DNA of 64,000 nucleotides. Source: Stappia indica (GTDB taxonomy: Bacteria; Pseudomonadota; Alphaproteobacteria; Rhizobiales; Stappiaceae). The notes under the pieces were generated by a model. The model was given only the letters and a program-made list of their open reading frames with translations, made no database searches and was not told the DNA's origin. The stretch is taken from positions 434,001 through 498,000 of the forward strand of contig NZ_CP046908.1 in the NCBI RefSeq assembly GCF_009789575.1, in the 5' to 3' direction. The translations under genes were made by a program, and so were the position numbers. Positions 12,990-30,821 of this stretch are shown one piece after another (the stretch's first letter is position 1; each line of letters opens with the position of its first letter).

Positions 12990-13024
12990 GGGCGAGGGGC
13001 CGCCGTCCGCCTCACATTCGCTGA

Positions 13025-13143
13025 GAGTACCTCTGGGTCCCGGCTCTCCGGCTTCGCCCGCGGCCGGGATGACCTTCCGAGAGGAGGAAACGCCCTCACC
13101 TCCCCTCGGCCGTCACCCCGGCCAAGCGCAAGCGCAGAGCCGG
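13025..13143. repeat. Palindromic intergenic repeat array, left part
   Basis: Two unit types lie downstream of xthA. One begins GGGTCCCGGCTCTCCGGC and ends GGCCGGGATGACCTTCC (13036-13078, called R5 here). The other begins GTCACCCCGGCCAAGCGC and ends GAGCCGG (13112-13143, called R1). Each has self-complementary ends (CCCGGC/GCCGGG or CCCCGGC/GCCGGGG). The same units recur at 14255-15862 and 29847-30821. R1 is cut here by an IS110-type element, and its other half resumes at 14253. The units resemble REP-like extragenic palindromes. Confidence 0.8.
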
Positions 13144-13152
13144 CAACTGTGT

Positions 13153-14088
13153 TTACGTTGGGCGATATGGGACGTTGTCGCGCAGCATGGCGTTGAGGCG
13201 GATGAGGAGTTTTCGTGCGGTTGCGATGAGGGCGATCTTGCGGGCTTTTGCGGTTTTGGTGATGCGGTCGGCGAAGGCCTTGAGATCGGGGCAGACGCGC
13301 GCGGCGATCAGTGCGGCCATGTAGAGCGCCTTTCTGACACGGGCGCGACCGCCGGCGATGCAGCGCTGTCCTTTGAGTTTGCCGGAATCGTGATTGAGCG
13401 GGGCGAGCCCGGCCAGCGCCGAAAGCCGCTTGGGTCCGGTCCTCCCAAGCTCGGGCATGAGTGCCAGCAGGACCTGGGCAGAGACCGGGCCGATACCCGG
13501 CGCGCTGGCCAGAAGGCGGGCCTGATCGCGCAACTCCCGCTGCGCCTTCACGTGGCGCTGGATCTCCGCCTCCACGCGGGCGATGGCCTCGCCCAGACGG
13601 GTGATCGCAGCTTCGAGGTCCTCGCGCACGAACGGGTCCTGGACCTGGGAGAGGCGGTTCTTCTCCATGACGCGCATGGCGACGATCTGGTCGCGGCGCG
13701 CGCTCAGCTCCGCCAGGCGAAGGCGGTGGGGACAGGGCGGCGCGTCGGGTTCCGGCCGCAGCCGCTCGCCGAGATCGGCCAGCACCACCGCGTCCAGCGC
13801 ATCGGTCTTGGCCTTGCGCCCGCGCGCCTGGGCATAGCGGCGCACAAGCGTCGGGTTGAGCCGGGCGCTGGCGACGCCGGCCCGGTGCAGGCGCTCGCGC
13901 AGGATCCGGTCGTAACTCCCGGTCGCCTCGAAGACGACGAGGCAGTGCGTCCGCGCCAGATGTCCGGCCCACCTCTCCACCGCCGCAGCCGTGTTGTCGA
14001 TCCGCCGCACACGGCCCTCGGCCGGGTCGAAGAGGTCCAGCCAATCCTTGGAAACATCGCATCCCACGTAGCGATCGAATATAGTCAT
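13153..14088 (-). CDS. IS110-family transposase (DEDD/serine recombinase), element A
   Basis: This 311-residue transposase has an N-terminal RuvC-like DEDD domain. Acidic motifs are YVGCDVSKDWLDLF (Asp about residue 10), VVFEATGSYDR (Glu) and KTDALDAVVLAD (Asp pair). The C-terminal Tnp_20 domain follows: LLASAPGIGPVSAQVLLALM, then LSALAGLAPLNHDSGKLKG with the conserved serine of the AxxxSxAGxxP type. I chose the ATG at 14088 because it opens the conserved MTIFDRYVGCDVSK; the codons upstream are leader. It is intact and differs in sequence from the second transposase at 14773, so the two are independent insertions. Confidence 0.92.
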   Translation of the reverse strand: MTIFDRYVGCDVSKDWLDLFDPAEGRVRRIDNTAAAVERWAGHLARTHCLVVFEATGSYDRILRERLHRAGVASARLNPTLVRRYAQARGRKAKTDALDAVVLADLGERLRPEPDAPPCPHRLRLAELSARRDQIVAMRVMEKNRLSQVQDPFVREDLEAAITRLGEAIARVEAEIQRHVKAQRELRDQARLLASAPGIGPVSAQVLLALMPELGRTGPKRLSALAGLAPLNHDSGKLKGQRCIAGGRARVRKALYMAALIAARVCPDLKAFADRITKTAKARKIALIATARKLLIRLNAMLRDNVPYRPT

Positions 14089-14090
14089 GA

Positions 14091-14230
14091 GGCCTGTCCC
14101 TGTGATGCGAGGTCTGTTGCAAGCAGCCTCGTGCAACTGTTCAGGTTGATCATGCGAAGCGGGACGGGGCCAATGCCGGCTCACGGTCTCACAACGACCA
14201 GGGGCCCAACGGCCTCCGTCCCGCAAGCAT
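14091..14230 (-). ncRNA. Candidate bridge RNA of element A (target and donor loops)
   Basis: Read on the minus strand, the leader folds into a 9-bp stem, GCGGGACGG (14224-14216) with CCGTCCCGC (14167-14159). Inside it, GGCCCC (14206-14201) equals the left target half plus core at 14258-14253. GAGCCGG (14182-14176) complements the right target half plus core (13137-13143 region). A second hairpin follows. Its 5' arm ACAGTTGC (14140-14133) equals the transposase-distal end of the element (13150-13143). Its 3' arm is weaker: ACAGG, complementary to the other end (CCTGT), occurs twice at 14103-14093. Three of four guide arms therefore match. The RNA ends are estimated and no promoter is assigned. 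Confidence 0.7.
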
Positions 14231-14254
14231 CATGACACAACACAGACATACAGG

Positions 14255-14564
14255 GGCCTATTGGCTTCCAGAGCGGCGGCGAGAGCACGCACGCGTGAAC
14301 CTCACGCACAGAGTGTCGTCCCGGTTTCGGCACAGCCGAAGACCGGGACCCAGTACCCCCGAACGGTCGCGAATGAAGCCTCGGCGCCGCCACAAGCGAG
14401 TTTCGCCGGCGGAAAACGCCCTCGCGCCACCATCCACTCGGGCGAATACTGGATACCTGCCTTCGCAGGTATGACAGCGGTGAAGGTGGCGGTGGGCTTC
14501 CGCCTCACACCCGCTGAAGTTGCCAATGGGTCCCGGATCTTCGCCCTTACGGCCTCGTCCGGGA
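14255..14564. repeat. Palindromic repeat array between the two IS elements
   Basis: This stretch continues the array split by element A. It holds the rest of R1 (GGCCTATTGGCTTCCAGAGC), an R3 unit near 14321-14356 (GTCCCGGTTTCGGCACAGCC then GAAGACCGGGA), and an R4 unit near 14450-14475 (TGCCTTCGCAGGTATGAC). The left half of an R5 unit lies at 14526-14564 and is interrupted by element B. No credible gene is present. R3 and R4 recur at 30065-30220 and 30607-30762, so the array order R1-R3-R4-R5 is a composite module. Confidence 0.75.
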
Positions 14565-14589
14565 TTGTTCGTCTGAAGAGATGGTAGAG

Positions 14590-14760
14590 TTTGGGTGGTC
14601 TCCCGGCCTGAACCGCCGGGAGACCAGTGGCAGGCGACCGGACCGGGATTGGGCTTTCGCCCGTCGTCATCATGGTCCCTGCCGCTTCCTTTTCCCGCTT
14701 GGAGAGTTGATTGGGCCTCTGGCTGACACCACGCCCGCGAACAATCCGAAGCACGATCAG
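14590..14760 (+). ncRNA. Candidate bridge RNA of element B (5' hairpin, target loop, donor loop)
   Basis: A perfect 11-bp hairpin (14597-14607 with 14615-14625) is followed by two loops. Target loop: stems GGCAG/CTGCC (14629, 14679) and GGGC/GCCC (14651, 14659) flank two arms. CCGGGAT (14643-14649) is identical to the left flank plus core (14559-14565). GTCATC (14666-14671) is complementary to core plus right flank (15743-15748). Donor loop: stems GCTTGG/CCGAAGC and GGGC/GCCC flank GAGTTGAT (14704-14711) and CGAACAATC (14738-14746). The first is identical to the right end (15738-15745); the second is complementary to the left end (14563-14571). All four arms include the core GAT or its complement, the published IS621 bridge-RNA logic. 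Exact RNA ends are estimated. Confidence 0.85.
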
Positions 14761-14772
14761 GATACCACCGCC

Positions 14773-15744
14773 ATGGCCTTTCTGGAACATGCCCCGTCCC
14801 ACGTCGTCGGCATCGACGTGTCGAAGCTGACCCTTGCCGTCTGTCCGGCGCCGGGCAACACCGCCTGCACCGCCGCCTGCACCGTGGCCAGCACCGTGGC
14901 CAACACGGCCCGGGCGATCCGCAAGCTGGTCGCCGGCCTGCCCTCCGGGACGCTCATCGTCTGCGAGCCGACCGGCGGCCACGAAGCCCTGCTGCTGGCA
15001 GAGCTCGCGGCCGCAGGCATCGCCTGCCACCGCGCCGACACCCTCAAGGCCAGGGCCTTCGCCCGTTCCTTCGGGCGACTGGCCAAGACCGATGCCATCG
15101 ATGCCGCACTGCTGGCCGCCTATGGCCAGGAGCGATGGCGCCACCTTCCGCTCCACCGCCCGGCCGATCGCACCCAGGCGCAACTCGCCGCGCTCGTCGC
15201 CCGCAGGCACGACCTCATGGCCATTCGCGGCGCCGAACTCAACCGCGCCAAGTCGCCCGGATGCACCCTGGTCTCGGCCTCCTGCAGGAGCCTCGTCAGA
15301 ACGCTCGACCGCCAGATCGAGACCATCGACACGGCCATCGCAGGCCTTTGCGCGCAATGCACCCTGCTCGCAAGGCGTATCGCCCTCTACCGCTCGCTGC
15401 CGGGCGTGGGGCCAAGGACCGCCATCTCCCTGGCCGCCGCCATGCCCGAGCTCGGCACCATGACCGGAAAGCAGGCCGCATCCCTGGCGGGCCTTGCCCC
15501 ACACCCCAACGACAGCGGAACCTTGAAGGGCTACCGCAAGACCCGCGGCGGACGCCCGCAGATCCGTTCCATCCTCTTCATGGCCGCCCTCAGCGCCGCA
15601 CGCTGCAAAGGGCCGCTGCGACCCGTCTTCCAGAGGCTCATCGCAAACGGAAAGAAGCCCATCGTCGCCCTAACCGCGCTCATGAGAAAGATCGTCGTCA
15701 TCCTCAACGCAAGAATGAGAGACCACCTCAACGATATGAGTTGA
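14773..15744 (+). CDS. IS110-family transposase (DEDD/serine recombinase), element B
   Basis: This 323-residue protein has the RuvC-like motifs VVGIDVSKLTLAV, IVCEPTGGHE and KTDAIDAALLA. The Tnp_20 domain is YRSLPGVGPRTAISLAAAMPE, then AASLAGLAPHPNDSGTLKGY with the conserved serine. The ATG at 14773 opens MAFLEHAPSHVVGIDVSK; upstream in-frame codons lie in the guide-RNA leader. The stop codon (15742-15744) coincides with the right end of the element, so end sequence and coding sequence overlap. It is intact and looks active. It is a different IS110 subgroup member from the transposase of element A. Confidence 0.92.
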   Translation: MAFLEHAPSHVVGIDVSKLTLAVCPAPGNTACTAACTVASTVANTARAIRKLVAGLPSGTLIVCEPTGGHEALLLAELAAAGIACHRADTLKARAFARSFGRLAKTDAIDAALLAAYGQERWRHLPLHRPADRTQAQLAALVARRHDLMAIRGAELNRAKSPGCTLVSASCRSLVRTLDRQIETIDTAIAGLCAQCTLLARRIALYRSLPGVGPRTAISLAAAMPELGTMTGKQAASLAGLAPHPNDSGTLKGYRKTRGGRPQIRSILFMAALSAARCKGPLRPVFQRLIANGKKPIVALTALMRKIVVILNARMRDHLNDMS

Positions 15745-15862
15745 TGACCTTTCGAGAATGACGCTCCGCCTCACATCCCCTCTGCCGTCACCCCGGCCAA
15801 GCGCAAGCGCAGAGCCGGGGCCTATTGGCTTCCAGAGCGGTGGCGACAACGCGCTCCCCGAA
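15745..15862. repeat. Palindromic repeat array, right part (intact R1 unit)
   Basis: The right half of the R5 unit cut by element B resumes with TGACCTTTCGAGAATGACGC. A complete R1 unit follows at 15787-15835, beginning GTCACCCCGGCCAAGCGC, passing through GAGCCGGGGCCTATTGG and ending GGCTTCCAGAGC. This uninterrupted R1 copy is the reference that fixes the insertion point of element A. Confidence 0.8.
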
Positions 15863-29846: not shown

Positions 29847-30821
29847 CCGTCACCCCGGCCAAGCGCAGCGCAGAGCCGGGGCCTATTGGCTTCCAGAGCA
29901 GCGGCGAAACACACCGGCCATGCCCCACGCACTCTTCTCCCCCCTTGAGGGGGAGATGTCGGCGCAGCCGACGAAAGGGGGTGAGCAGCGCCCGCGACGG
30001 GGCGCCCCACCCCGCGTCATCCCGCACCGCAGGGAATGCACGTCGTTCGCCACAGCCGCAGGATGTCATCCCGGTTTCGGCGCAGCCGAAGACCGGGATC
30101 CAGTAACCCCGAACGGTACGAGAGAGACCTCGGCACTGCCGCTGGAACTTCAGTGGCGGCGGCGCTCGCGCCACCACCCGCCCCAGCGGATACTGGATGC
30201 CTGCCTTCGCAGGCATGACAGCCGAGAGGGGGCGCGCTTTTCCGGCTCGGCGCTTCGCTTGCCCGGAATGACGCCATGAGAAGCATTCCGCCTCACGCCG
30301 ACCGAGGGCGCCATTGGGTCCCGGCTCTCCGGCTGCGCCTGCGGCCGGGATGACCTCCGAGAAAGTGGCGCCTCCCTCGCATCCTCTCGGCCGTCACCCC
30401 GGCCAAGCGCAGCGCGCGCCGGGGCCTATTGGTTGCCAGAGCGGCGGCGAAACACACCGGCCATGCCCCACGCACTCTTCTCCCCCCTTGAGGGGGAGAT
30501 GTCGGCGCAGCCGACGAAAGGGGGGGAGCAGCGCCCGCGACGGGGCGCCTCTCCCCGCGTCATCCCGCACCGCAGGGAATGCACGTCGTTCGCCACAGCC
30601 GCAGGATGTCATCCCGGTTTCGGCGCAGCCGAAGACCGGGATCCAGTAACCCCGAACGGTACGAGAGAGACCTCGGCACTGCCGCTGGAACTTCAGTGGC
30701 GGCGGCGCTCGCGCCACCACCCGCCCCAGCGGATACTGGATGCCTGCCTTCGCAGGCATGACAGCCGAGAGGGGGCGCGTTTTTCCGGCTCGCGCTTCGC
30801 TTGCCCGGAATGACGCCAATC
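29847..30821. repeat. Palindromic repeat array with a 432-bp module duplicated at 543-bp spacing
   Basis: Two nearly identical modules, 29847-30279 and 30390-30821, each hold R1 (GTCACCCCGGCCAAGCGCAG), R2 (CCCCTTGAGGGGGAGATG), R3 (CATCCCGGTTTCGGCGCAGC), R4 (TGCCTGCCTTCGCAGGCATG) and R6 (GCTTCGCTTGCCCGGAATGA). A spacer of 110 bp between them carries an R5 unit (GGGTCCCGGCTCTCCGGC at about 30317). The modules differ at only a few positions, so the duplication is recent. No real gene is present. Reading frames across it are by-products of the repeats. The units match those around the IS elements at 13025-15862. Confidence 0.85.

Follow-up and report, generated by a model that had tools for sequence, protein, structure and literature searches.

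An IS110-group insertion sequence in Stappia indica

The window analyzed here is a 64,000-nucleotide stretch of the Stappia indica genome (contig NZ_CP046908.1, positions 434,001 to 498,000 of the forward strand). It contains an insertion sequence, element B, whose features are collected in Table 1. The recombinase matches PF01548 and PF02371, both over the cut-off, corresponding to a DEDD RuvC-like domain and a Transposase_20 domain with the conserved serine, and its five motif residues align with the motifs of IS621, the residue roles of which are described in PMC11208158. The stop codon overlaps the right end, which is short, and the non-coding left end is long, with 207 bp from position 14566 to the start codon. 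By its domains, the layout of its ends and its clean insertion, element B belongs to the IS110 group of the IS110 family.

Five full copies, 98.9-100% identical and with intact frames, were found in the S. indica genome (5.12 Mb, one contig). Many of the differences between them are concentrated in the recombinase gene at window positions 14845-14885. The genome also contains two relatives, L006 and L007, which are 72-73% identical to element B. These two have their leader and left target in common; the recombinase frame is broken in L006 and open in L007. Elsewhere in the genome are four right-end-only remnants of B-like elements (L008, L009, L010 and L011; 48-64 nt), and a larger segment, repeated over about 450 bp, is common to L009 and L010. 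A search of a plasmid collection for relatives of element B gave no match at E 1e-60.

Table 1. Element B and its features in the window
Feature	Position	Strand	Evidence or remark
IS110-group insertion sequence (element B), 1180 bp	14566..15745	+	five full copies with differing outer flanks; uninterrupted orthologous site in G680
AT core	14564-14565 and 15744-15745	+	both junctions
DEDD recombinase, 323 aa; D15, E65, D107, D110, S248	14773..15744	+	PF01548, PF02371; IS621 chain 8wt6, E 2.2e-19
Predicted 5' hairpin of bridge RNA, 11 bp: GGTCTCCCGGC 14597-14607 with GCCGGGAGACC 14615-14625, loop 14608-14614	14597..14625	+	sequence; single-sequence folds, relatives included; outside model R1
Target-binding stem-loop, 13 bp; distal hairpin 14651-14654/14659-14662	14626..14686	+	both-side changes in 12/13 stem pairs
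Left target guide CCGGGAT	14643..14649	+	matches the left flank of the respective element among relatives
Right target guide GTCATC	14666..14671	+	reverse complement of GATGAC 15743-15748; one compensatory change, L026
Donor-binding stem-loop: GCTT 14697-14700/AAGC 14749-14752; inner GGGC 14713-14716/GCCC 14733-14736	14697..14752	+	model alignment, pair changes
Left donor guide GAGTTGAT	14704..14711	+	identical to right end 15738-15745
Right donor guide CGAACAATC	14738..14746	+	reverse complement of GATTGTTCG 14563-14571 (core + left end); compensatory change in L006/L007
Left target + core, CCGGGAT	14559..14565	+	identical in 6/7 B-type elements of the genome; seventh CCGGGGT
Core + right target, GATGAC	15743..15748	+	identical in 7/7 B-type elements of the genome
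Putative -10 TAGAGT of circle-only promoter	14585..14590	+	-35 TTGATT would span 15741-15745 plus 14566; inferred, score no better than shuffles

Layout of the leader

The original prediction described a 208-bp leader before the recombinase gene, with an 11-bp hairpin and two internal loops whose four arms match the ends and flanks of the element. On direct reading, the leader (14565-14772, 208 bases), the hairpin, the coordinates and all four arm matches proved correct. As judged from sequence and predicted folds, the leader has the layout of the IS621 leader, with a 5' hairpin, a target loop and a donor loop. Each of the four arms is present once within 14577-14772, and none of 20000 dinucleotide shuffles of this segment contained more than two of the exact arms. 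This result serves as a guide and not as a corrected probability, since the selection of the arms and of their lengths followed inspection of the sequence. The predicted fold of 14594-14746 has an energy 4.0 standard deviations below the shuffle mean.

Conservation of the two loops

A covariance search of the leader, which had been proposed along with the original prediction, was run with a model of the two loops (R1) built from 15 leaders; the 5' hairpin, for which the evidence is single-sequence folds, was left out of it. Within the S. indica genome, R1 matched seven places, which are exactly the five copies together with L006 and L007 (L001 and L007 among these were in the training set). 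At E 1e-4, and with the S. indica genome counted, R1 had a match in 11/397 genomes from the order and in 5/385 from the class; for one genus, 6 of 14 genomes had a match. Rfam 15 families gave 0 matches within the window at the gathering score.

In the R1 alignment (61 matches, 38 distinct), 95.5% of the cells are paired, compared with 84.5% in shuffles, and pairing falls to about 50% when the partners are slid by one column. Both sides have changed in 20 of the 28 stem pairs, a count that leans towards the modeled structure, as the alignment was fitted to it. Five measures were compared with 500 shuffles, and on none of them did any shuffle reach the value of the alignment. Pairing is weaker in the distal hairpin, where it extends to only 83% of the cells. 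The two-loop, opposite-strand IS621 design claimed for this leader thus holds, and it is conserved with compensatory changes. For some loci the same contig was fetched twice (e.g., L013/L064 and L014/L065), and distinct pairs were counted in the covariation tests, in which related sequences are not independent. For two relatives, a left end was looked for upstream and not found: in L022 part of the target loop is absent, and L027 has both loops with unrelated sequence further upstream.

Target site and core

All five intact copies are inserted at CCGGGRT|GAC. In all seven B-type elements of the genome, the left flank is an extragenic repeat with CCGGGRT at its end and the right flank starts with GAC; past GAC, the right flank of L007 differs from those of the others. 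That the target is a genomic repeat, as originally proposed, was borne out by the frequency of CCGGGRTGAC in the genome, with 144 occurrences compared with 8 of the backwards-read control pattern. The looser SNRGGATGAC exceeded its backwards control in all 12 genomes of an analyst-chosen set (from 180 vs 47 to 719 vs 34), three of which (G680, G146 and G173) have no R1 match. A further observation in the window is a 300-nt direct repeat at 29875-30717 (543 bp apart, 98% identical), parts of which resemble the repeat beside element B.

The genome G680, from the same genus, has the orthologous locus without element B, and 117 of 120 bases of this empty site are identical to the joined flanks with a single core. 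Insertion of element B is thus sequence-specific and clean, with only the short core in common. The original prediction took GAT as the sequence shared by both junctions. This did not stand: the core reads better as AT, given that the junctions are CAAT (left) and GAT (right) in L025, and GGT and GAT in L005, which is a copy of element B. Retention of the target core at the left junction and placement of the donor core at the right one would give such a pattern. Excerpts of PMC11208158 describe for IS621 top-strand cleavage immediately 3' of the core, and recombination with AT and GT cores as well.

Agreement of the guides with flanks and ends

It had been stated beforehand that target-loop arms of relatives not fitting their own flanks would speak against the bridge RNA. 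For the left target guide, 30 of 31 distinct guide/flank pairs match at 5/7 positions or more, and the remaining one, the distant relative L060, matches at 2/7. The mean agreement with the own left flank is 5.77/7 compared with 3.44 for permuted pairs (0/20000 permutations as high). This test scored 50 of 61 rows; ten lacked a left end or flank that could be used, and L095 was omitted on account of its guide register. Agreement climbs towards the core, from 19/31 at position -7 to 30/31 at -1. In 6/50 of the rows the guide has AC and the flank AT. L004 and L005 have a guide mismatch, CCGTGAT (G14646T), and other variants in common, yet are located at different sites, which suggests either tolerance of a single mismatch or spread of the mutation by gene conversion.

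When guides were permuted only within clades, using sets grouped by the analyst by name and kinship, the own pairs remained higher (5.77 vs 4.94, 0/20000). The signal is carried by the Pleomorphomonas-like set (0.0007, 8 pairs) and the distant set (0.0012, 8 pairs); it is marginal in the Mesorhizobium-like set (0.06, 9 pairs), and the Stappia-like set, the clade of the window itself, gave none on its own (5.5 vs 5.5 permuted, 6 pairs).

The two target guides vary to different degrees: among 35 distinct RNAs the left guide region occurs as 27 distinct strings, and 30 carry GTCATC as the right guide. The right-flank test covered rows that have a right end and a best score of at least 7/9; right ends were sought for L035, L059 and L095 and were not located. 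Of 25 distinct pairs, 24 agree at position +1 and all 25 at +2 and at +3; at +4 the agreement is 16/24 and at +5 it is 4/24. Covariation of the right guide is weak because the guide hardly varies: 701/20000 permutations were as high for +1 to +5 together, and covariation beyond +3 (+4/+5) was not significant (2391/20000). One relative, L026, provides a compensatory case, with the guide CTCATC and the flank GATGAG.

For the donor loop, the comparisons are partly circular for both guides, since the right donor guide had served in the search for left ends, as had the left donor guide in that for right ends. The right donor guide agrees with the left end at 3.38 of 5 variable positions compared with 2.01 after permutation (n=13, 0/20000). 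Element B and its 73% relatives L006/L007 differ by one compensatory change in this guide (CAAACAATC with GATTGTTTG). The left donor guide tracks the right end in L060 and L061, which have GGGTTG and GACTTG, respectively, in place of GAGTTG. Its last two letters, the core part, are not AT in L025, L060, L061 and L062.

Proposed mechanism and alternative explanations

We explain these observations by a bridge RNA that is encoded in the leader and guides the recombinase, element B being an active or recently active and otherwise ordinary IS110-group insertion sequence; for this explanation as a whole we estimate a probability of about 0.94. For transcription, RNA binding, circle and catalysis we infer the following course by homology with the known systems. 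Excision would join the ends of element B into a circle and thereby create a promoter, from which transcription of the leader would yield a bridge RNA, about 160 nt long, that is bound by the DEDD/serine recombinase. The first loop would pair with the repeat site CCGGGATGAC on both of its strands, and the second would do so with the joined ends, GAGTTGAT/TGTTCG. Strand exchange would then take place at the AT core, with no target duplication beyond the core. A candidate promoter spanning the junction (TTGATT-18-TAGAGT in element B) was the best one in 19 of 23 distinct junctions. It was dropped as independent evidence for the circle, as its scores were equal to those of shuffles.

The agreement between guides and flanks could also reflect nothing but shared ancestry, with related elements residing in related repeats. 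This is compatible with the bridge RNA and fits the equal own and permuted scores in the clade of the window; we regard it as very unlikely to be the whole account, as 0/20000 within-clade permutations were as high as the own pairs overall, with low values in the Pleomorphomonas-like and distant sets as well, and as single compensatory changes occur in the right target guide (L026) and the right donor guide (L006/L007). A role of the leader matches as DNA, in which the recombinase would bind internal copies of the ends and target as protein sites without any RNA, draws on the fact that the arms also simply copy or complement the sequences of the ends and flanks. Against this, the stems flanking the arms covary as RNA pairs, the arms lie in internal loops with opposite-strand polarity, and the layout matches that of IS621, for which excerpts of PMC11208160 report measurement of the RNA, so that this explanation appears extremely improbable to us.

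Least probable of all is that the leader is coding. The transposase frame is indeed open upstream to an ATG at 14581 in this copy, giving a frame of 387 aa (14581-15744). However, the R1 spans of distinct relatives vary by 1-2 nt (128, 129, 130, 131 and others), which would break such a frame, conservation follows the stems, and the alignment with IS621 and ISCro4 begins at residue 9-10 of the short form.

Relation to known systems

Published systems are compared here from excerpts of the papers cited. Bridge RNAs have already been predicted in 85.7% of IS110s (PMC11208160), and the novelty of element B is therefore low. Like the design predicted for element B, that of IS621 (PMC11208160, PMC11208158) has a leader RNA upstream of a DEDD and serine recombinase gene, with a 5' hairpin, a target loop and a donor loop; in each loop the 5' arm pairs with the bottom strand and the 3' arm with the top strand, the core lies within the arms, and insertion occurs in extragenic palindromes. 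The two differ in their core, which is CT in IS621 and AT in element B, and in the right donor guide, which pairs with 9 contiguous bases in element B and for which discontiguous pairing is described in IS621 (PMC11208160). The proteins are distant (chain 8wt6 in Table 1), and R1 barely recognizes the IS621 RNA: it ranked the IS621 leader first in L111, at an E value of only 0.12, and did not pick out the leader of an IS621-like element in L112. Element B would thus work like IS621 and belong to the IS110 group, on a distant branch.

By description, the seekRNA of ISEc21 (PMC11187229) is also similar, being encoded in an upstream non-coding region of an IS110-type element and having the bottom-strand match 5' of the top-strand match. 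Its target, unlike that of element B, is a conserved site in IS3-family transposase genes. ISPa11, ISPpu9, ISPpu10 and ISRm19 (PMC1525189) are likewise described as IS110 copies associated with extragenic palindromic repeats. Compared by protein, the closest relative of the recombinase with a solved structure is ISCro4 (PDB 9t56, E 1.4e-21). None of the titles and abstracts listed by searches of open-licence PMC papers mentions a Stappia IS110 element that carries a bridge RNA.

We tentatively raise the possibility that element B belongs to an IS110 clade specialized on the feet of putative extragenic repeats, in which the right guide is nearly frozen on GATGAC and the left guide evolves with the host repeat. 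If so, its members would form a natural series in which half of the guide is retargeted in step with the repeat families of different genera. Element B contributes a compact pair of recombinase and predicted bridge RNA, for which an empty site is documented, five intact copies are available and a covariance model works. The retargeted left guides of its relatives, a natural series in themselves, could show how guide specificity evolves.

Neighboring element A

Another IS110 element, element A, adjoins element B on the minus strand (about 13143-14252). It was used in none of the tests, and R1 gave no match to it. Candidate arms can also be read here: GGCCCC at 14206-14201 is identical to the end of the left flank (14258-14253), with a third GGCCCC at 14171-14166; GAGCCGGC at 14182-14175 complements the right junction (13144-13137); ACAGTTGC at 14140-14133 is identical to the right end (13150-13143); and ACAGAC at 14117-14112 complements the left end (14247-14242). 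The target of these candidate arms would be another point in the same repeat family. At the orthologous locus of G680 (L110 2337-2478), element A is apparently absent as well, with about 140 bp in place of window positions 12994-14303.
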